From Candidatus Pollutiaquabacter sp. (GTDB taxonomy: Bacteria > Bacteroidota > Bacteroidia > AKYH767-A > 2013-40CM-41-45), in assembly GCA_947465495.1 (NCBI GenBank), contig CANIAS010000008.1, positions 1 to 63,757 on the forward strand: a stretch of DNA of 63,757 nucleotides. Direction: 5' to 3'. Position 1 is the first letter of the stretch. Each line of letters opens with the position of its first letter. This document shows positions 22,766-54,991 of the stretch, in pieces. Made by a program: the position numbers and the translations under genes. The notes beneath the pieces are model-generated. The model had not been told where the DNA came from, searched no databases, and saw only the letters and a program-made list of their open reading frames with translations.

Positions 22766-25700
22766 ATGGTCAAATTAAACGATCAGTTTTTTATCATCGG
22801 ACGTGGAGCTCTCAGATGGATAAGCGCTGTCATTTTGATAGTACTCTGTAACAACGACCGTTTGGTTGCATCGCATGCAATGGGAGCAGATTTAACCTAC
22901 ACGTGCCTGGGTGGAAATCAGTACGAGGTAACCTATTCGTTCTATCGGTATTGCGATGGTATTCCAGCACCAAGTACATTTACTGTGAATGTGGTAGCGC
23001 CGGGATGCTCCAATGCCAACTTGAATGTTATTTTAAATTGTACCAATTTTAATAATCCTACTGAAATTTCTCCAGTATGCCCGACAGCCACTTCGAATTG
23101 CAACGGAGGTACGTTCATAGGTGTTCAAGAGTATATTTATACGGGTATCATCACTTTACCTGCTGCTTGTGCCAATTGGACATTAAGCGTTTCGGAATGT
23201 TGCCGTAATTCCACCATTACTACCGTAGCCAATCCTTCTGGCTATAATTTGTTTTTGTATTCAACGTTGAATAACACTTCGGGTATTTGTAATAATTCGC
23301 CTACGTTTGCCAACAATCCTGTTCCATTCGCTTGTACTGGTCAGCGTTTCTGTTTCAATCATGGAGCCTTCGATGTTGATGGCGATTCACTGGTGTATCA
23401 GTTAATTACTCCTCGCTCAGGTCCAGCTGCTGCTGATACTGTATCCTACGTTGCTGGATACTCAGCTAGTCAGCCAGTCCTTTCTCAACCTGGCAATCCT
23501 GCGGTTCAGGTTCGCTTTGATCCGGTGACGGGTGACATGTGTATGGATCCTATACAAGCTGACAATACCGTCTTTGCGGTGTTGGTGAGTGAATATCGTA
23601 ATGGTGTATTGATCGGTCAAGTTGAACGCGACATTCAGTTGAGCGTTTTGGCTTGTAGTAATCGATTGCCACTCTTATCTGGTATCAATGGATTGCCAAG
23701 TCCTCAGCCTTACACCATCAACGCATGCGCTGGCTCAGTTGTTAATTTCTTCATTGCTTCTATTGATCCAGATCCTACTAATTCTACTTACCTGAATTGG
23801 GACTATGCAATTCCTGGTGCAACTTTTACCACCTACGGTGGGTCGAATCCTTTTGGTGGACATCGTGATAGTGCTCGTTTTACGTGGATTCCAACTGTTG
23901 GAGATATTGGTCATTCCAACTGCTTCACGGTGTCGGCCTCTGATGATAATTGCCCAATCCTAGGAACTACGTATTCGTCGTATTGTATCAATGTTATAGG
24001 TGTAGATGTGGACGCAGGTGCGGATGTTTCTGTTTCTTGCGGACAATGTACTTCGTTGACAGCAACGCCAGTGGGAGGGACCGGACCGTATACTTATACT
24101 TGGAATCCTGGTAATGTTCAATCAGCCACATTGAGCCCCGCTTGCGTGGGACAGTACATTGTTAGTATTCGGGACAACAGTACCTGTACGAATACTGATA
24201 CTATTAATGTTATTCCATCAGCAGGCAGTATCGCGGCAGCATTTAATGCTACTAGCAATTGCAGCGGTGCGCCGGTGCAATTCACCGATCAGTCATCAGG
24301 AGGTGCAGTCAATAGCTGGTCTTGGACGTTTGGTGATGGTGGAACATCCAACCTTCAGAATCCTACTCACCAGTATGCTTCAAACGGAAATTATAATGTA
24401 ACACTTATTATTACTGCTGCTGGTGGCTGCATCGATACTGTCGTGCAGCAGATTACCATAGCTACCAATATTCCTGTTGCTCAAATTGCTGCTACAAATG
24501 TATGTCAGGGTACTACCATGAATTTTTCAAGTAACGCAAGTACCGGAGGTCCTATTGCTACGTATGCATGGGATTTTGGAGACCCTGGTTCGGGCGCATC
24601 CAATACGGATGCCACGGCTAATCCAAGCCATTATTTCATTACTCCAGGGACATATACTGTTACACTCGACATCACCAACACGGCAGGTTGCTCGGATAAT
24701 CAACAACAGACAGTTACGGTCTATGCCAATCCAACTTGTTCAGTTCCTCCGCAGCAGATTTGCGCGGGGCAACAAGCCGTATTGTCTGCCCCTGCTGGAT
24801 TTAGTAGTTATGCATGGAGCAATGGTGGGAATTCACAAACCATAAGCGTGAGTCCTGCAAATACTGCGACCTATACCATAACCGTAACGGATGCTAATAA
24901 TTGTTCAGTTACCTCAAATACCCAGGTGAACGTTAATCCTGTTCCTGTGGCAAACGCCGGAACCAATCAGACTATTTGTGCCGGTACATCAACCAACCTT
25001 ACCGCTAGCGGTGGTTCTGCAGGAAGCGTTTATACCTGGAGTCCTGGATCGCTTGGTGGAGCTACAGTTACAGTGACACCAGCAATTACTACTCGTTATA
25101 CTGTTGAAGTAACGTCAGGAGCAGGATGTTCTTCAACGGCATCTGTAACTGTTGATGTGAATCCTATGCCTCAAGTTTCAGCAGATAACGATGCAGCCAT
25201 TTGTAAGGGTACATCAATTATTATTAATGCAAATTCTGGAACAGCGAATTATTCCTGGCAGCCCGGCAGTTTAACCGGTGCGAATATTGCAGTTACACCT
25301 TTGGTTACAACTACCTATACGGTTACTGTCAGTGATGCTATTGGTTGTTCGGGTAGTGATCAGATTACGATTACTGTAAATCCATTGCCAGCAGCAGCAT
25401 TTAGTTCAGACGCTCCGCAATGTGAAGGTTTTTCTGTCTCATTTTCGGATGCATCCTCTGTTCCAACGGGATCTGTTTCTGCTTGGTCTTGGGATTTTGC
25501 CAATGGCCAAACCTCTCAAACTCAAAACCCAGCTTCACAATATTCCAACTCGGGTAATTACAACGTTCGTCTCATTGTAACCTCCGACGGAGGCTGCAAG
25601 GATACCATTGAAAATGCGATAATCATTAACGCAACTCCCGTAGTTGATGCAGGAGTAAGTCAAGATATTTGTCCGGGAGGAAGTGCTAGTCTGACGGCCT

Positions 25701-27577
25701 CCGGTGGAAGTCAGTATTCTTGGAGTCCGGGTGGATTCTCGTCTGCGACAATAAACGTTAGTCCTGCTGTTACTACAGATTATACCGTTACAGTAACGGA
25801 TGCCAATGGATGTATCAATTCGGATGCTGCACGTATTGCAGTTCAACCTGTGCCCGTGGCAAATGCGGGAACGGATCAATCCATTTGTTATGGCGAGTCA
25901 ACCAGTCTGGTTGCTTCCGGTGGTGATACCTACCTTTGGTCGCCAGGTAACGTTGCCACTGCAGTTGTGAACATTACACCATCAGCAACCGCGACTTATA
26001 CCGTCATTGCTCAAAATACATTCGGTTGCCGCGATACGGATGATGTTCAAGTGAGAGTTAATCCTTTGCCCATAGCTTCCTTTGCTCAAACAGGTCCGGT
26101 ATGTCAGTCTATTCCGGTTTCATTTACCGACCAATCGTCCGTGGGAACGGGCACTATCAGTGCTTGGAACTGGGATCTTGGTAATAATATTATTAGCACC
26201 AACCAGGACCCTCAACTTTTATATTCATCACCTGGTAATTATACGGTGAGGTTGATAGTAACTACGTCTGATGGATGTAGAGATACGGTGAGCGAACCAT
26301 TATCTATTTATGCGGAACCAGTTGCCGAATTTACCTCCGTGGATGTTTGTGATGGATTGCCGGTTCAGTTTACGGATGTGTCTACCATTTCCGACGCTAC
26401 TCCGCTCTCGTATTCATGGGATCTTGGAGACAATTCCATGGCCTACAGCCAATCATTTTCGCATACTTATGGTACCTATGGTACCTACCCGGTTACATTG
26501 GTGGTTGCCTCAAACCGTAACTGCCGTGATTCGATAAGCCGTTTAGCCAATGTCTTCGCGCTTCCTGATGCGGCATTTGTCACTGACTTTACTTGTACTG
26601 ACGAGCCAGCTGATTTTATGGACCAGTCTGTCATTCCACAAGGACTCATCAGTAATTGGTTTTGGCAATTTGGAGATGGTTCCGTTGAGTCGGTTCCTAA
26701 TCCTCAGCACATTTATAATGTACCAGGGTATTACGACATTGACCTATTAGTTACGAGTGATCATGGATGTCTGGATAGTACCAACGGATTAATTCGGGTA
26801 GTGCCGCTGCCTATGGCTGATTTCGAAACGCAGGATGTATGTTTTGGGTTAGAATCCCCACTAAGTGATTTATCCTCATCGCCTACAGGTAGTATTGTGT
26901 CTTATTCCTGGAATTTTGGGGACGGTCGCACCTCTACCGATCAGAATAATTTGCACCAATATGCTGCTCCTGGATTTTATCAAGTTTCTTTGACGGTAAC
27001 AACTGATAGTGGATGTGTCAATACCTTAGTTCGTCCAAATGCGCTTCAAGTATATGCTCCGCCACCGGCTAGCTTTTTAGATAACGCCGTCTTGGCAAGT
27101 GATATTTATCCAATTGTCAATTTCACCAATCAGACTGGTACGCTGGGTACATATTCCTGGGACTTTGGAGATGGTGCTCTCTCAACGGAATATTCGCCTA
27201 CGCATGAGTATGCTTCCATAGGCATTTACGAAGTCCAGATGATTGCCATTGATTTAAATGGTTGCGTAGACACCTTGCTCAGAAGCATCGAAATTAGACC
27301 TACGTCAAATGTATACATTCCCAATTCTTTTACCCCTAATGGTGATTTGAAGAATGACTTATTCCAGGTTTATACGTATAATGTGGTATCTGTGAATAGT
27401 CAGATTTTTGATCGTTGGGGCTTGGAGATATTTACCTGGGATGGTGTATCTGGTGGATGGGATGGAACAATAGAGGGTCAACCAGTTCAAAATGATGTTT
27501 ATGTTTACAGAATAGTAACTACAGACGTTAATAATAAACGTGAAGTTCACGTCGGACACGTTTCGCTGGTTCGATGA
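22766..27577 (+). CDS. Giant secreted PKD-repeat protein with CHU_C sorting domain
   Basis: This 1603-residue protein has an N-terminal membrane segment (about 15-35) acting as signal peptide, then a conserved Bacteroidetes module beginning ASHAMGADLTYTCLGGNQY. From about residue 410 come many PKD and Ig-like units: PKD copies show WSWTFGDGG or YSWNFGDGR cores, and the Ig-like copies repeat ICAGTSTNLTASGG/YTWSPGS. The last 90 residues (VYIPNSFTPNGDLKNDLF, FDRWG, GWDGTIEGQPVQNDVYVY) are the gliding-motility-associated CHU_C domain, a type B T9SS signal. It is probably a surface adhesin or matrix protein. The 214-bp AT-rich upstream gap contains TTTG at 22714 and a near -7 box TATTTTTC at 22733, a weak promoter candidate. 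Confidence 0.9.
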   Translation: MVKLNDQFFIIGRGALRWISAVILIVLCNNDRLVASHAMGADLTYTCLGGNQYEVTYSFYRYCDGIPAPSTFTVNVVAPGCSNANLNVILNCTNFNNPTEISPVCPTATSNCNGGTFIGVQEYIYTGIITLPAACANWTLSVSECCRNSTITTVANPSGYNLFLYSTLNNTSGICNNSPTFANNPVPFACTGQRFCFNHGAFDVDGDSLVYQLITPRSGPAAADTVSYVAGYSASQPVLSQPGNPAVQVRFDPVTGDMCMDPIQADNTVFAVLVSEYRNGVLIGQVERDIQLSVLACSNRLPLLSGINGLPSPQPYTINACAGSVVNFFIASIDPDPTNSTYLNWDYAIPGATFTTYGGSNPFGGHRDSARFTWIPTVGDIGHSNCFTVSASDDNCPILGTTYSSYCINVIGVDVDAGADVSVSCGQCTSLTATPVGGTGPYTYTWNPGNVQSATLSPACVGQYIVSIRDNSTCTNTDTINVIPSAGSIAAAFNATSNCSGAPVQFTDQSSGGAVNSWSWTFGDGGTSNLQNPTHQYASNGNYNVTLIITAAGGCIDTVVQQITIATNIPVAQIAATNVCQGTTMNFSSNASTGGPIATYAWDFGDPGSGASNTDATANPSHYFITPGTYTVTLDITNTAGCSDNQQQTVTVYANPTCSVPPQQICAGQQAVLSAPAGFSSYAWSNGGNSQTISVSPANTATYTITVTDANNCSVTSNTQVNVNPVPVANAGTNQTICAGTSTNLTASGGSAGSVYTWSPGSLGGATVTVTPAITTRYTVEVTSGAGCSSTASVTVDVNPMPQVSADNDAAICKGTSIIINANSGTANYSWQPGSLTGANIAVTPLVTTTYTVTVSDAIGCSGSDQITITVNPLPAAAFSSDAPQCEGFSVSFSDASSVPTGSVSAWSWDFANGQTSQTQNPASQYSNSGNYNVRLIVTSDGGCKDTIENAIIINATPVVDAGVSQDICPGGSASLTASGGSQYSWSPGGFSSATINVSPAVTTDYTVTVTDANGCINSDAARIAVQPVPVANAGTDQSICYGESTSLVASGGDTYLWSPGNVATAVVNITPSATATYTVIAQNTFGCRDTDDVQVRVNPLPIASFAQTGPVCQSIPVSFTDQSSVGTGTISAWNWDLGNNIISTNQDPQLLYSSPGNYTVRLIVTTSDGCRDTVSEPLSIYAEPVAEFTSVDVCDGLPVQFTDVSTISDATPLSYSWDLGDNSMAYSQSFSHTYGTYGTYPVTLVVASNRNCRDSISRLANVFALPDAAFVTDFTCTDEPADFMDQSVIPQGLISNWFWQFGDGSVESVPNPQHIYNVPGYYDIDLLVTSDHGCLDSTNGLIRVVPLPMADFETQDVCFGLESPLSDLSSSPTGSIVSYSWNFGDGRTSTDQNNLHQYAAPGFYQVSLTVTTDSGCVNTLVRPNALQVYAPPPASFLDNAVLASDIYPIVNFTNQTGTLGTYSWDFGDGALSTEYSPTHEYASIGIYEVQMIAIDLNGCVDTLLRSIEIRPTSNVYIPNSFTPNGDLKNDLFQVYTYNVVSVNSQIFDRWGLEIFTWDGVSGGWDGTIEGQPVQNDVYVYRIVTTDVNNKREVHVGHVSLVR

Positions 27578-49914: not shown

Positions 49915-50538
49915 TTAGTTAAGCAAGGCGATACCCAACTGAAAACTGAGGGTTTTGATCTTGCTGATGTTGAATTCGGTGCGTTCTCCGCTGGCGTAGC
50001 TGTAACGAACACCAATTAAAGCTGCGGCTTGCGAATCATGTCCAAATTTGATTAACGCACCAGCTTCTGGACGAACTAGAAACGACCAGCTGTTATCCTG
50101 CAACGAATAGATGTTGAAGTAAATCTCTTGCTCAGAATACATGCCACCCAATGCTAGTCCAGCATACGGCATTATCATCTGGTCGGTAGAAAGATAATAG
50201 TGGGCATTCACTGCGAAAGGCAGGTTGTACATGTAACGATACAAATCGGTAGTTACAGCCAACTGATCGAATGAGTAGGTGGCTTGCGGAGTGTATTCAT
50301 ACAATGAACTCCAGTTGATTTCACCGCCGACAGAAAAGTGTGGATTGATGAAATAACGTCCTTCTACTTTAGCTCCATACGTACTGGTTCGAGAAATGAA
50401 GTCTTTGTTGTTCAAAGGCACGGTGATATCCCACGCGAAGGAGTATAATCCTTGGGTCAGGTAACGAGTTTGAGCGGACGACTGAAACGAGCACAGCAGA
50501 CCAATAGAAAGCAAGTAAAGAGAGAGTATTCTTTTCAT
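49915..50538 (-). CDS. Small outer-membrane beta-barrel protein
   Basis: A 207-residue exported protein (signal peptide MKRILSLYLLSIGLLCSFQSSAQ) made of alternating strands with aromatic girdles, for example FAWDITVPLNNKDFI, VEGRYFINPHFSVGGEINW and MIMPYAGLALGGMYSEQE. It resembles the OmpA/OMP_b-brl family barrels of eight or ten strands. The C-terminal SFQLGIALLN fits a final strand. It lies 14 nt downstream of the DUF4136 gene on the same strand, and likely shares its transcript. Function unknown. Confidence 0.75.
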   Translation of the reverse strand: MKRILSLYLLSIGLLCSFQSSAQTRYLTQGLYSFAWDITVPLNNKDFISRTSTYGAKVEGRYFINPHFSVGGEINWSSLYEYTPQATYSFDQLAVTTDLYRYMYNLPFAVNAHYYLSTDQMIMPYAGLALGGMYSEQEIYFNIYSLQDNSWSFLVRPEAGALIKFGHDSQAAALIGVRYSYASGERTEFNISKIKTLSFQLGIALLN

Positions 50539-50552
50539 GGTATCTGTGTGTT

Positions 50553-51182
50553 TTAACGTTGGATATAGGGTGATTGTGTGAAGGACTGATCGATGGCGTA
50601 AAGGGCGTTTTGCGTGTTGGAGTAGGTAGTGCCCAGTATTCCGTTAGAAATAGAGGTCCAAATGATTTCCAGTTTGTTGTTATTAAGCGTTAGGTTCTTT
50701 AGGTCAACCATTTCCATAACAATGGTACCTGTGTTATAGGTATACGTATAGGAGAAAGGATAATAGTAATACGAGTCGTAATAGCCCCAATAACCTGGAT
50801 CATAATACCCAGGATAACCCCAGTAGGAGCCTGGAGTTATTATGCTGGTTTGGTTTATGGTTTTGATGGTAAAAATATTCATCGCCAAGTCGGCGGTGTC
50901 ATTGGCACCTGCTTCACGATATCCGCGGCTGTTCATGTTGCTGCGGACTTGATTGAGCAATTGGTTCGCTTGATTTGTACTCAACATCGTATCGTTTGTA
51001 GTGCCACTGCCTACGATAGCAACGTAGGAGGGAAGTTCGTAGGTTTGGTAGGAAGCGAACTGTGCGCTTGGCTCATACAAGGTGCCAACCAGGAAGTCGT
51101 CCGTCAGTTGCGACAAGTTTGGCTCTTTTCGACAGCTGAACGCGGTTACGGCAATCAGCGCTAGAAATAGGATTTTTTTCAT
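50553..51182 (-). CDS. DUF4136 lipoprotein A
   Basis: A 209-residue predicted lipoprotein of the DUF4136 family, with lipobox AVTAFSC (Cys at about 17). Features are FASYQTYELP, LLNQVRSNMNSRGYREAGANDTADLAMNIF, a Tyr/Gly-rich insert (YYDPGYWGYYDSYYYYPFSYTYTY), and TIVMEMVDLKNLTLNNNKLEIIW. The family occurs in Gram-negative envelopes; no function is known. ATG 51182 was chosen over an upstream start because the signal peptide begins there. It diverges from a second DUF4136 gene across 84 bp. Confidence 0.82.
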   Translation of the reverse strand: MKKILFLALIAVTAFSCRKEPNLSQLTDDFLVGTLYEPSAQFASYQTYELPSYVAIVGSGTTNDTMLSTNQANQLLNQVRSNMNSRGYREAGANDTADLAMNIFTIKTINQTSIITPGSYWGYPGYYDPGYWGYYDSYYYYPFSYTYTYNTGTIVMEMVDLKNLTLNNNKLEIIWTSISNGILGTTYSNTQNALYAIDQSFTQSPYIQR

Positions 51183-51266
51183 AGAATTGGTTGAATGGTG
51201 TTGGTGGCAAATGAAGGTATAATTGTCTATTTTTACAAGCATTAGTTTTAACTCAAACTCATAACG

Positions 51267-51833
51267 ATGAACATGAAACGCTACCTTTTTGTAGGAGTAT
51301 TGTTAGCACTTGCCAGTTGTTCGACTTACCAGGTTTCTTTTGAACGAACTCCGGGAGTTGATTTTTCCAAATACAAAACGTATGCATGGGCTCAACCAGA
51401 TAATTCAGCTGGTAAATATGTAAATAAGCAATACCTGAATGACCGGGTTATCTATTATTCCAATCAGCAACTAGCTAAGAAGGGTATGACAATCGATGTC
51501 AATAAACCGGATGTGGTTTTCAGTTTTCAGTCTTATTCTCAGGATAAAGTAGAATACCAATACAATCCGCCACCAGCGTATGTTAATTTTGGATTTGGTG
51601 GTCCTGGTTACTACATGGGATACGCCGCTCCAATGGCACCGGCTACCGTTACGGCCAATAACTATACAGAGGGAACCTTGGTGATGTACATGACAGATCC
51701 TTCCAACCAACAGGTTTTGTGGAAAGGATTCGTTTCAAAGGCTCTTGATCAAGCGTATGATCTTGACGCCGAATTACAGCCTGCCATTACCAAGGTAATG
51801 TACACCTTGCCGTTGAAACCTGCTACGAAGTAA
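51267..51833 (+). CDS. DUF4136 lipoprotein B
   Basis: A 188-residue predicted lipoprotein of the same DUF4136 family as its divergent neighbour: lipobox LLALASC (Cys 18), then DFSKYKTYAWAQPD, a Gly/Tyr/Pro-rich centre (FGFGGPGYYMGYAAP), TEGTLVMYMTDPSNQQVLWKGF and a helical C-terminus. ATG 51273 is a possible alternative start. Its stop lies 10 nt from that of the convergent 736-residue envelope gene. Similarity to protein A suggests local duplication, with later divergence. Function unknown. Confidence 0.82.
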   Translation: MNMKRYLFVGVLLALASCSTYQVSFERTPGVDFSKYKTYAWAQPDNSAGKYVNKQYLNDRVIYYSNQQLAKKGMTIDVNKPDVVFSFQSYSQDKVEYQYNPPPAYVNFGFGGPGYYMGYAAPMAPATVTANNYTEGTLVMYMTDPSNQQVLWKGFVSKALDQAYDLDAELQPAITKVMYTLPLKPATK

Positions 51834-51843
51834 TTCCACTCAA

Positions 51844-54054
51844 TTACCTTCTTCCACCGCCGCCACGCATTGGTGGTCCTGATGGACGATCAAATGATCC
51901 CGCAGGACGAGCATTGTTGATGTTGTTGAAGTTATTGGTGCGCATATCTCCTCGATCACGATTCATCTGTTGCTGGTTTAAATCACTGATAGACGAGGCT
52001 CCTCTTGCTGGATTTCCTCCTGATTGAACGTTCTGCCAGGAGTTACCCGTGTTTTGTTGCCATTGGTTTGCTTGGCCGCGAAACACGTTCCCGTTCGGAT
52101 CTGAATACACGTTATTCTGCATGTTGTTAGGCCGTGGAGTATTTGAGGACGGACGCTGAAACCCGTTAGGGTTACCATTCATGGAAGGACCGCCTGAAGG
52201 AACAGGACGTGGAGCATTTCCGGATGGGCGAACCGTTGATGTTGGGCGAACGGCTGTGCCCCGGGAGTTGTACATGTTATTGGAATAACTGCCGTATGGA
52301 CCGGCTGGACGTGGGCCATAGGCAGGAGGACGGTAACCAGGAGGAGGTGCTCCATAATATCCAGGTCTTCCGTAAGGACCATAATATCCTCCATACGGCG
52401 GACGGTAATAATAGGGCGGTCTATAAACAGGACCGTACCACCCGCCATAATATCCAGGTCCACGGTAACCATAGGACATTGAGAATCCATAGCTCCATCC
52501 AGAGTATGGACTGTAGTGTAGGTTGAACCCATACGTTACTGGACGGGGGTAATAATAAGTGCCGTACCATCCCGGATAATAATATCCTGTGCCATAAACA
52601 ATCGTTGGTCCGTTGATATAGCAGCCAGTATATCCAGGTGTGTAACCAACGTACACAATGTCAGGAGTCGAATCGTAGATGTACACATATTTCACATTGT
52701 ACACAGGACATGATGATGGGATTTTCTTGACATCGGCAGGCACCGATGTGGCAACGCTCCAGGGACCGTTAGGCGTGTAACCCATAAACCATATGCCTTT
52801 GTCGCATACATAGAACGTGTTTACGTCTTTAATCACCGAGCTGGCTGTATTAGTCGCATACGATAAACTGGTGTTTTCAATCTGTGTGAAGGAAGGGGTG
52901 CCATCGTAGGTTACTGTGCAAGTAGCGTCTTGGCGACTTACAGCAGCCGTTTGTGGAACCTGTGCATCCATCACCGCCTCTTTCGCAGCTGGAGTACCTG
53001 CAATACTCGCCAGTACTTCATCCTTTGCACTGCCCTCTGGAATCTTTGTGAAGTCAGCTGGTAATTTATCGGATGCAATGTAGGTCCAAGGACCTTTTAA
53101 CGATTTAGATGAATACCATCTACCGGAAAGAAGGATGTAATTCGACTGGTCCGGGATGTACATGAAAATATTGCTTTGCGTATTGCTGACGTAGAGCAGC
53201 TGTGTGGTTTCAATGGCAGTATAGTTCGGCTCTCCATTAACCTGCAAAAGTTCGGCTTGAGTTGTCCGAACAATAATTTCAGTGGAAGGGTCTGTATGGA
53301 TGTTTAAAATAGAATCTGAAACCGTAGAGTCTTTTCGCTGATCTGCTATTACTTGCTGTTGCAACTGAACCAATTCGGCAGGCACGTTATTCGCTGCGGT
53401 CCAGCCTTGATTGAACTGTTTGGAATTGAACCATTGGTTGGAGCCAAGCAAATAGTAGGAATTGTCAGCCGGGTTCTGCAGAAGTAGTGCGGGTGTGTTT
53501 ACAATGCGTTTCATGGAGGAATTGTCCATGGTGCCATATTTTGGATCACCATCCAGAATCACTAACATAGCAGGCTTGGTGCGGTAGATGATTTCCGGTG
53601 CGTCTGTTTTTAGTCCCTCATCCGACGCCGGGTTGTTTTGCTCGATGGAGGCCAGTAGTGCATCCAACGAAAGTACCAGGTCCCACGAAGGCACTTCGTC
53701 TGCAATCGACTTTTTCAATAACTCGATCTTTGTGGAGTCGACTTGTTGCGGAAATTTCACGTCGGTTACTTTGGTGTCGATCAAGATTACTTCACGTTTC
53801 TCACGGTCTGTAGATACTCTAGAGTCTGCCCACAATGCACCAAATATTGGAGCGTCACTTCCGGTAGGAGTGACCGAAAACGCAGCCCTTGCTCTCAATT
53901 TATCTCCTGATAGCGATTCAGGTTGCGGTTGGTAAATGACTATTTTTCCATCTGGTCGTTCGATTACTTTAGGCCACGTGTTTTGTGCCGAGCTGACATG
54001 CGAAATCAAGAACAGTAAAAGTGATGCTAAGAAAGCAATGGTGTTTTTATTCAT
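51844..54054 (-). CDS. Exported protein with three tandem repeats and Tyr/Gly/Pro-rich tail
   Basis: A 736-residue protein with signal peptide MNKNTIAFLASLLLFLISHVSSAQ. Residues about 154-231, 259-339 and 378-446 are three diverged copies of a unit that has a Trp-rich core (QWFNSKQFNQGW, RWYSSKSLKGPW, IWFMGYTPNGPW) and ends in a P-A-D/E motif. From about 460 on it is Tyr/Gly/Pro-rich (YYGGWYGPVYRPPYYYRPP), then Asn/Gln/Gly/Arg-rich to a GGGGRR end. Related proteins are annotated as carbohydrate-binding family V/XII, but I see no firm proof of sugar binding. Probably an extracellular or envelope matrix protein. Confidence 0.72.
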   Translation of the reverse strand: MNKNTIAFLASLLLFLISHVSSAQNTWPKVIERPDGKIVIYQPQPESLSGDKLRARAAFSVTPTGSDAPIFGALWADSRVSTDREKREVILIDTKVTDVKFPQQVDSTKIELLKKSIADEVPSWDLVLSLDALLASIEQNNPASDEGLKTDAPEIIYRTKPAMLVILDGDPKYGTMDNSSMKRIVNTPALLLQNPADNSYYLLGSNQWFNSKQFNQGWTAANNVPAELVQLQQQVIADQRKDSTVSDSILNIHTDPSTEIIVRTTQAELLQVNGEPNYTAIETTQLLYVSNTQSNIFMYIPDQSNYILLSGRWYSSKSLKGPWTYIASDKLPADFTKIPEGSAKDEVLASIAGTPAAKEAVMDAQVPQTAAVSRQDATCTVTYDGTPSFTQIENTSLSYATNTASSVIKDVNTFYVCDKGIWFMGYTPNGPWSVATSVPADVKKIPSSCPVYNVKYVYIYDSTPDIVYVGYTPGYTGCYINGPTIVYGTGYYYPGWYGTYYYPRPVTYGFNLHYSPYSGWSYGFSMSYGYRGPGYYGGWYGPVYRPPYYYRPPYGGYYGPYGRPGYYGAPPPGYRPPAYGPRPAGPYGSYSNNMYNSRGTAVRPTSTVRPSGNAPRPVPSGGPSMNGNPNGFQRPSSNTPRPNNMQNNVYSDPNGNVFRGQANQWQQNTGNSWQNVQSGGNPARGASSISDLNQQQMNRDRGDMRTNNFNNINNARPAGSFDRPSGPPMRGGGGRR

Positions 54055-54210
54055 GATGTTTAATGGACTTTTTATTCGGGCTTGTGATAGAAAATTGTGC
54101 ATTTAAATAGGATCGGTAAAAGTTGGTAGGTGCGGGATGCTGCGTGAAATTAAGCAACAAGTTTAATTCATCAGCTGACATGTATCAATCTTGATAAAAC
54201 ATTTAACGAA

Positions 54211-54256: not shown

Positions 54257-54943
54257 TCAGAAGGAGAGACTCAGGCCGGCGATTCCGCCAAATTGAGTGA
54301 TGGTAGAGTATCCGGAAACACCCACGCTAGAGCCACCAGATCCAACAAATACACTGGCTCCCAGTGATTGGATAGGGATATACAGTTGTGGCTGAAGTTT
54401 AATCCCAATCAATTCAGTGACTTTGATTTTAACACCGGCCTTGGCAGCTACTGCGAAACGAACCGTTGCTGCAATATCAAGTGTACGTGGTGTAAACACA
54501 ACAATACCAGCACTAAGTCCGCCATACAGTGAAATTCGCTCATCCGGATGCTTGATGGCATTCATGCCCAGCATGAAATAGTCGATGGCAAGCTCGGAAG
54601 GAATGTTGTTTTCGTACCAATTTTGTCCATATGTATAATACAACGAACCAGTCGCGTTGGTCACTTGGTGTTGCCAGGTTCCTTCGAATTCAGCCCAGTC
54701 GGTAACATCTTTTGCAAGGCTGACTCCATAAACACTTCCCTGTTCCAAATAAACGGAGCCGTAATCAATTTGAAAAGTTTCATCGAAGTTATACCCGTAA
54801 AAAGGAGTGATACTAAGTTTTGTGTCGCTGACCGTGCGTTTCATTGGAACTGGTGGTGGGCCAGAAGAATAAACTTGGGCGTTTACCGATTGATTATGGA
54901 ATAAAAAAGCAACCAAGGCAAGGAGTAGTAGTCTGTGTGGCAT
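54257..54943 (-). CDS. Outer-membrane beta-barrel protein
   Basis: A 228-residue exported protein. The signal peptide starts MPHRLLLLALVAFLFHNQSVNAQ; the rest is alternating beta strands (ITPFYGYNFDETFQIDYG, AEFEGTWQHQVTNATGSLYYTYG, KHPDERISLYGGLSAGIVVF) ending GLSLSF with a terminal Phe, as expected of a Bam substrate. It belongs to the broad outer-membrane beta-barrel class. ATG 54943 is preferred to an upstream in-frame start because the signal peptide and a promoter both fit. Function unknown. Confidence 0.75.
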   Translation of the reverse strand: MPHRLLLLALVAFLFHNQSVNAQVYSSGPPPVPMKRTVSDTKLSITPFYGYNFDETFQIDYGSVYLEQGSVYGVSLAKDVTDWAEFEGTWQHQVTNATGSLYYTYGQNWYENNIPSELAIDYFMLGMNAIKHPDERISLYGGLSAGIVVFTPRTLDIAATVRFAVAAKAGVKIKVTELIGIKLQPQLYIPIQSLGASVFVGSGGSSVGVSGYSTITQFGGIAGLSLSF

Positions 54944-54958
54944 ATTGAATTGTTTTCC

Positions 54959-54991
54959 CAAATGTATTGTTTTTTGATAATAATTGAACAA
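54959..54991 (-). promoter_or_regulatory. Promoter of the 228-residue barrel gene
   Basis: Minus strand TTG (54991-54989), 22-nt spacer, TACATTTG (54966-54959). The -7 box ends 16 nt before ATG 54943. Confidence 0.5.

Follow-up and report, generated by a model that had tools for sequence, protein, structure and literature searches.

Introduction

The YceB protein of Escherichia coli, a lipoprotein of 186 aa, is one of the bacterial TULIPs, together with P47/OrfX2, DUF4403, DUF2140 and DUF2993 (PMC6791001), and in its available passages that report does not mention the family described here; the word "carbohydrate" does not occur in it. The protein that we analysed can be compared with YceB as a domain of this predicted kind, fused to repeats and a tail. 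A second described relative is the Pfam family WXXGXW (PF12779), which a published table, in its available part, carries without a template entry. In the databases some relatives carry the name "carbohydrate-binding family V/XII", a label that steers experimenters to sugar binding, and for which we did not find the sequence evidence. Literature searches returned nothing under "carbohydrate-binding family V XII", nothing joining DUF4136 with carbohydrate-binding, and nothing combining two or more of DUF1254, arylsulfatase, DUF4136 and "carbohydrate-binding family". As far as these searches show, the family is common, apparently secreted, and unstudied.

The gene and its family

The window, by which we mean the whole analysed stretch of 63,757 nucleotides from Candidatus Pollutiaquabacter sp., carries the family gene on its minus strand. 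The open reading frame covers 51844-54102 from the first ATG (752 codons), and an in-frame ATG at 54054, directly before a signal-peptide-like N-terminus, gives a reading of 736 aa (51844-54054), to which residue numbers refer unless the 752-aa reading is stated. The initial annotation had described a real protein here, with repeats and a compositionally biased tail, which both the sequence and the profiles bear out; what is new is an ordered N-terminal domain, conserved Tyr/Gly/Pro stretches and a hairpin in the tail. The AlphaFold model, built from 75 sequences, has a mean pLDDT of 73.8, and the protein is divided as follows:

53983..54054 (-): signal-peptide-like N-terminus, residues 1-24 (sequence and family alignment)
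53641..53982 (-): N-terminal ordered domain, residues 25-138 (AlphaFold model, structure rows, profile comparison)
53365..53583 (-): Trp-centred repeat 1, residues ~158-230 (profile comparison and repeat model)
53035..53265 (-): Trp-centred repeat 2, residues ~264-340 (profile comparison and repeat model)
52717..52929 (-): Trp-centred repeat 3, residues ~376-446 (profile comparison and repeat model)
52375..52707 (-): Tyr/Gly/Pro-rich block, residues 450-560 (entropy and conservation)
52126..52374 (-): variable Pro/Asn/Gly/Ser/Arg region, residues 561-643 (mostly low confidence, predicted disordered)
52021..52125 (-): C-terminal hairpin mini-domain, residues 644-678 (AlphaFold and hairpin profile)
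51844..52020 (-): helix predicted at 689-714, then Gly/Arg terminus and stop codon (AlphaFold and composition)

Searches with the window protein gave no match in Pfam and no sequence relative of solved structure up to E 1, nothing above noise in NCBIfam, and nothing in PHROG up to E 0.1. Judged by its sequence it is nonetheless a member of a known, uncharacterised family and not an orphan. Full-length homology and domain order place it among the proteins annotated as carbohydrate-binding family V/XII, one of which, Pseudoalteromonas WP_217877173.1, has 39.4% identity to it over residues 43-543 of the 752-aa reading. The domain order and the tail hairpin are common to these proteins and ours, whereas the composition of the tail differs from member to member. 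Both rhizobial members that were read (L004 and L006) differ by an extra SH3-like extension at the N-terminus, confirmed by Pfam as SH3_3 for L004 only, a Rhizobium protein in which this domain lies ahead of the family part and fits an extracytoplasmic site.

The N-terminal domain

Residues 25-138 are predicted to form a beta-meander and a long helix, with block means of pLDDT of 79-93 over residues 31-130. Foldseek placed E. coli YceB in the first row (E 0.012, probability 1.00), with no row at E 0.001 or better. A second structural alignment again had YceB (3l6i) first, with 108 residues aligned at 3.3 A over residues 24-132 of the model and a Z of 7.6, where the tool warns that values below 8 can be a common arrangement, or common for unmatched models; polo-box rows, which are unrelated, score up to Z 3 over this part of the model. 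Ranks 1-11 were held by YceB, OrfX2, LBP, BPI, the OrfX1-OrfX3 complex, P47 and BPIFA1/SPLUNC1, and we take those beyond YceB, OrfX2 and P47 to be filed in the TULIP superfamily as well.

The predicted fold likeness to YceB/DUF1439 (PF07273) is accompanied by a profile similarity that is weak but non-random. Compared with a profile of yceB and eight DUF1439 sequences (from 8 of 8 loci; one sequence lies below the Pfam cut-off and two ORFs were chosen by length alone), the domain scored 25.7 with P 0.0018 and an HHalign probability of only 15%, whereas the highest score was 18.9 in 100 column shuffles and 16.4 among the five other segments of the window protein. By default 61 columns were aligned; a laxer realignment covered 97 collinear columns. 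As a single sequence yceB gave no signal against the domain, and DUF1439 was found neither in the window protein up to E 1 nor in its genome (G000) at E 0.001. From the model and the profiles we regard a TULIP-like fold as likely, not proven, and if the domain is a TULIP, a large family would be added to the few known bacterial candidates for lipid transfer.

The Trp-centred repeats

The three Trp-core repeats of the initial annotation are homologous to each other by profile comparison, at E 1.9e-18 or better. With profiles made from the alignment columns of relatives (residues 150-230, 255-342 and 376-450), the pairings gave E 8.9e-20 for repeats 1 and 2, 1.9e-18 for 1 and 3, and 1.2e-18 for 2 and 3, against E 0.01 for the best pairing of column-shuffled profiles (one shuffle of each). 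Of 100 family ORFs (from 97 loci, of which two are duplicates), 95 contain three units by the repeat model. Two split genes (L057 and L113) account, as halves, for four of the remaining ORFs, and the last, from Paraburkholderia (L005), has three units over the whole open frame. The gene of L113 (G035) is split around the second repeat and that of L057 after it, with the halves as adjacent ORFs, and the open frame of L005 is broken upstream of the N-terminal domain.

The unit also occurs singly, at loci L103-L110, in small proteins from a single family (f22) within the phylum, and these match the repeat units at profile E 6.2e-11 to 1.2e-12. Three of three such proteins scanned match Pfam WXXGXW, whose cut-off the window protein does not reach. 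The units are homologous by profile, but the small proteins have a single one where ours has three, and their tail is charged and often repetitive.

No defined enzyme and no known fold, either of which would have spoken against the initial annotation, was found over the repeats. For the repeat model, Foldseek ranked polo-box domains highest (E 2.3e-3 at best, with a probability of 0.84); when realigned they reached Z 4.8 at best, with 80 residues at 3.8 A, a weak likeness at the noise level of the tool. A beta-propeller was discarded, as propeller entries had a probability of at most 0.13 among the 50 Foldseek rows listed for the full model.

The Tyr/Gly/Pro block

The entropy over 20 residues is below 3.0 bits in 76% of the windows of residues 450-560 and in 74% of those of residues 560-640, against 6.3% in 1057 neighbouring ORFs, and the run of 140 windows below 3.3 bits in the window protein is equalled or exceeded by only 3 of 1017 neighbouring ORFs of at least 100 aa. 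In the full AlphaFold model, confidence is mostly low for residues 494-643, and in the repeat model it is mostly low for the final 76 residues (473-548 in full-length numbering). In the family alignment, the majority residue makes up 72-80% of each 20-residue block over residues 441-520 and 55-58% in the more weakly conserved residues 521-560. Many Tyr, Gly and Pro are invariant, and residues 481-500 and 501-520 are the best conserved blocks of the whole protein, so the Tyr/Gly/Pro block is not filler. The more than 250 residues of low complexity that had been described from the sequence are therefore real as regards the low entropy at 450-560 and 560-640, but the description overstates the featureless part, since 441-520 is strongly conserved and 644-678 is predicted to be an ordered hairpin.

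The tail and its hairpin

The tail after about residue 548 is 131-389 residues long in 75 relatives (median 187), and in our model it has stretches with pLDDT below 50. A survey of its composition in homologues, as the initial annotation had proposed, showed a biased, Arg-rich tail across the 75 relatives, with mean percentages of G 14.0, N 13.7, R 12.4, S 8.4, P 8.2, Q 7.9, Y 4.8, K 2.3 and C 0.0 (rounded). The suggested likeness to byssal or eggshell matrix proteins was one of composition only and is not borne out by these Gly/Asn/Arg-rich tails, with 4.8% Tyr, 2.3% Lys and a Cys share that rounds to zero, nor by the Tyr/Gly/Pro part, which is a conserved block and not a repetitive matrix sequence. 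The net charge is positive in 73 of the 75 (median +19), which does not by itself point to a named ligand, and in 72 of 75 relatives two or more of the last five residues are R or K, as is so for 228 of 1057 neighbouring ORFs. The tail of the Paraburkholderia member mentioned above has several degenerate "YNPxTGxYxxG"-like repeats, none of which was seen in the window protein.

The hairpin has the consensus core NNVYxDRxGNVYR....GxWQQR....W, and pLDDT block means of 87-89 for residues 651-670. G655 is conserved in 68, D652 in 66, W673 in 61 and W665 in 57 of 75 alignment rows; these are counts by alignment column, which we used because the motif as a regular expression (27 of 75) was too strict. 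A hairpin profile made from 30 of 57 suitable rows and searched over 20 genomes at E 1 had 17 matches below E 0.07 in 16 genomes, all of them in family-like ORFs. The 17 include a 193-aa piece beside the family ORF of G335, and a second match in G348, in a 751-aa ORF that was left unaligned and is taken for a paralogue. No match was found in three genomes that bear the family gene (G294, G142 and G358), and the best value in G007, which is without it, was E 0.29. A general sorting signal was considered and dropped, since the matches are confined to family-like ORFs in the 20 genomes. The conserved hairpin and the basic end are targets for studying how a disordered tail fixes a protein to bacterial surfaces.

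In the single-contig genome G335 (L095, contig C1) the family gene has a frame shift in the tail region, near a short run of G, which leaves the hairpin in a separate ORF, the 193-aa piece above. This could be slippage, phase variation or a sequence error.

The genomic neighbourhood

The gene order in the window is Hsp70 (dnaK), a small barrel, two DUF4136 genes (a and b), the family gene, a 244-aa protein and an M12-type peptidase with FnIII and a T9SS tail. The four small neighbours are:

49915..50538 (-): small outer-membrane beta-barrel (OMP_b-brl, by Pfam), homologues near 5 of 84 relative loci
50553..51242 (-): DUF4136 protein a, with a Tyr/Gly/Pro-rich loop (Pfam)
51267..51833 (+): DUF4136 protein b, convergent, 10 bp from the stop of the family gene (Pfam)
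54257..54991 (-): 244-aa protein without a Pfam match; two relatives that were scanned match OMP_b-brl

Homologues of these four lie near 5, 6, 6 and 10 of the 84 relative loci, against 0 for eleven other window genes, and the two DUF4136 genes adjacent to the family gene are the only ones found in its genome. DUF4136 genes were found in 11 of 95 distinct loci (the duplicates L018 and L062 dropped, the window counted) against 1.0 expected, with a Poisson P of ~1e-8 that ignores relatedness among the loci, which are not independent; the expectation comes from 132 genes over the cut-off in 41 genomes of ~179 Mb (rounded sizes, summed by hand), 27 of which were our own choice and were reached through the loci. 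All 13 of these neighbouring DUF4136 genes are confirmed by Pfam, and in 84 of the 95 loci the flanks that were read lack any member of the DUF4136 cluster. A 40-residue stretch rich in Y/G/P/W/F (at least 0.55) occurs in 6 of the 13 DUF4136 proteins, against 12 of 1186 other neighbours. Both DUF4136 proteins of the window have Tyr/Gly/Pro-rich loops, with a composition resembling that of the Tyr/Gly/Pro block. A DUF4136 protein is in the core list of outer-membrane vesicles of Chlorobaculum tepidum (PMC12285230), and such proteins are reported from a biofilm-regulating operon in Burkholderia (PMC5192318); in their available passages these reports fit an envelope setting and are silent on the window protein.

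Sulfatases (9 of 9 confirmed by Pfam) occur in 9 of the 95 distinct loci, where ~2.4 would be expected by a hand calculation (171 genes, 23 genomes, ~95 Mb), and AI-2E permeases (6 of 6 confirmed) in 6 distinct loci against ~0.9, likewise by hand (66 genes). Four loci (L117, L072, L025 and L060) adjoin parts of a common group of asparaginase, aspartase-like lyase, C4-dicarboxylate transporter, DcaP porin, glutaminase and amidohydrolase, not every gene being present in each. Far from the family gene of G335, a stretch (C1:3702887-3721003) holds three DUF4136 genes, a sulfatase of ~800 aa and an AI-2E permease, which suggests a loose guild of accessory envelope genes.

In a genome of the same genus (G008), the barrel, both DUF4136 genes, the homologue of the 244-aa protein and the peptidase lie on the dnaK side with ~210 bp at the position of the family gene, and a family gene with 57% identity is found on another contig, cut at the contig end. 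Adjacency is thus not obligatory. In G007 and G009 dnaK and the EamA/Maf side are present, in G010 and G001 dnaK, and none of these four has any of the small block in the stretch that was read. The pattern in the five genomes means that the block is accessory, and the gene accessory within the block. No direct repeats flank the gene among those listed; an imperfect inverted pair (85%, 20 nt) has one arm at the 3' end of the gene (51829-51848) and its partner in the peptidase gene. No T9SS sorting domain (Por_Secre_tail or CHU_C) was matched in the family protein, and two other window proteins carry one. The 1603-aa product of window positions 22766-27577 contains eight PKD stretches and, for type IX secretion, a CHU_C domain.

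Possible function

The reading that we prefer, with a probability of roughly 0.38, is that of an accessory secreted protein of the outer envelope, which would bind a lipid or LPS-like ligand as well as an anionic surface. The TULIP-like N-terminal domain would hold a lipid, or LPS by its lipid part; the repeats, together with the Tyr/Gly/Pro block, may dock on a partner at the outer membrane, for which the DUF4136 proteins and the small barrels are plausible candidates, and the Arg-rich tail could anchor the protein to an anionic surface such as LPS phosphates, a polymer or DNA. Such a protein would have a role in altering or shielding the outer surface in certain niches, and not in housekeeping. 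Here the secretion, the lipid binding, the surface tethering and the partnership with DUF4136 proteins and barrels are what we infer, while the repeats, the basic tail and the hairpin are read from the sequence. We put forward, still more tentatively, that the family might be a further class of lipid-binding bacterial TULIPs, present in eight phyla or more. In it a half-TULIP would be joined to three repeats and to a disordered, basic tail serving as a tether to the cell surface, and the carbohydrate-binding name in the databases would be a mislabel.

It is rather unlikely that we are instead dealing with a surface adhesin or matrix protein, with repeats that would attach to glycans or peptidoglycan and with segments, Tyr/Gly/Pro as well as Arg/Asn/Gln, that would self-associate or coat the cell. 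Such a function would go well with the signal-like N-terminus and the low-entropy segments, aromatic/Gly/Pro as well as Arg-rich, and also with the similar stretches in 6 of 13 neighbouring DUF4136 proteins and the excess of sulfatases (9 of 95 distinct loci, ~2.4 expected), but the Tyr/Gly/Pro block is conserved in order, adhesin, CBM and matrix families were all unmatched in the Pfam, NCBIfam and solved-structure sequence searches, and so was a T9SS sorting domain. We find it unlikely, and slightly more doubtful than an adhesin, that the protein is a periplasmic scaffold or stress factor without a lipid ligand, with repeats acting as protein-protein modules and a tail that phase-separates or chaperones. 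The topology of the repeats is weakly polo-box-like (strands, then a helix; Z 4.8 at best) and parts of the tail have pLDDT below 50, as could be expected of such a factor; however, the polo-box rows are at the noise level of the tool, and no partner is known.

A true carbohydrate binder, with CBM5/12-like modules for chitin or a related glycan, is what the label on deposited relatives implies, and the aromatic pattern of the repeat core presumably resembles that of CBM5/12. Even so we consider it improbable, as neither CBM_5_12 nor any other Pfam family was matched up to E 1 in the window protein, in L003, which bears the label, or in L011, and the Pfam matches of L004 are SH3 domains only. 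No CBM was seen among the listed fold rows, which is not proof of absence, and the repeat instead matches the single-repeat proteins that Pfam scores as WXXGXW. The tie to CBM family 5/12 is a database label without a sequence match in the window protein, and we could not support the name from the sequences, in agreement with the doubt about it in the initial annotation.

Distribution

A scan of a genome collection gave at least 592 candidate stretches, at least 580 of which encode relatives. The 80 loci that were kept, mostly metagenome-assembled, belong by record title to eight phyla (Bacteroidota, Ignavibacteria, Krumholzibacteria, Gemmatimonadota, Verrucomicrobia, Planctomycetota, Gammaproteobacteria and Aminicenantes). 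Relatives were also found in 39 of 72,556 plasmid records, which added alpha-, beta- and gammaproteobacteria, none of these records having 80% of the query in one place. The gene is present in 4 of the 42 genomes of its own order, its own genome counted, and this patchy occurrence speaks for an accessory protein. In a sample of the phylum 43 of 296 genomes had matches, namely its own, 11 others (E below 1e-100) and 31 of family f22, in which the matches are short and weak (E 5e-7 to 1e-3); the eight of these that were read are single-repeat proteins.

The GC content (0.41-0.50) gives no clear island. Phyla cluster on a quick tree of 87 rows, with 7 changes where the minimum is 6 and the shuffled mean 10.9, so the wide spread alone does not show frequent transfer between phyla. 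Genes for IS200-like (Y1_Tnp) transposases lie near the family gene at two loci (L011:12129-12680 and L023:15595-16065).
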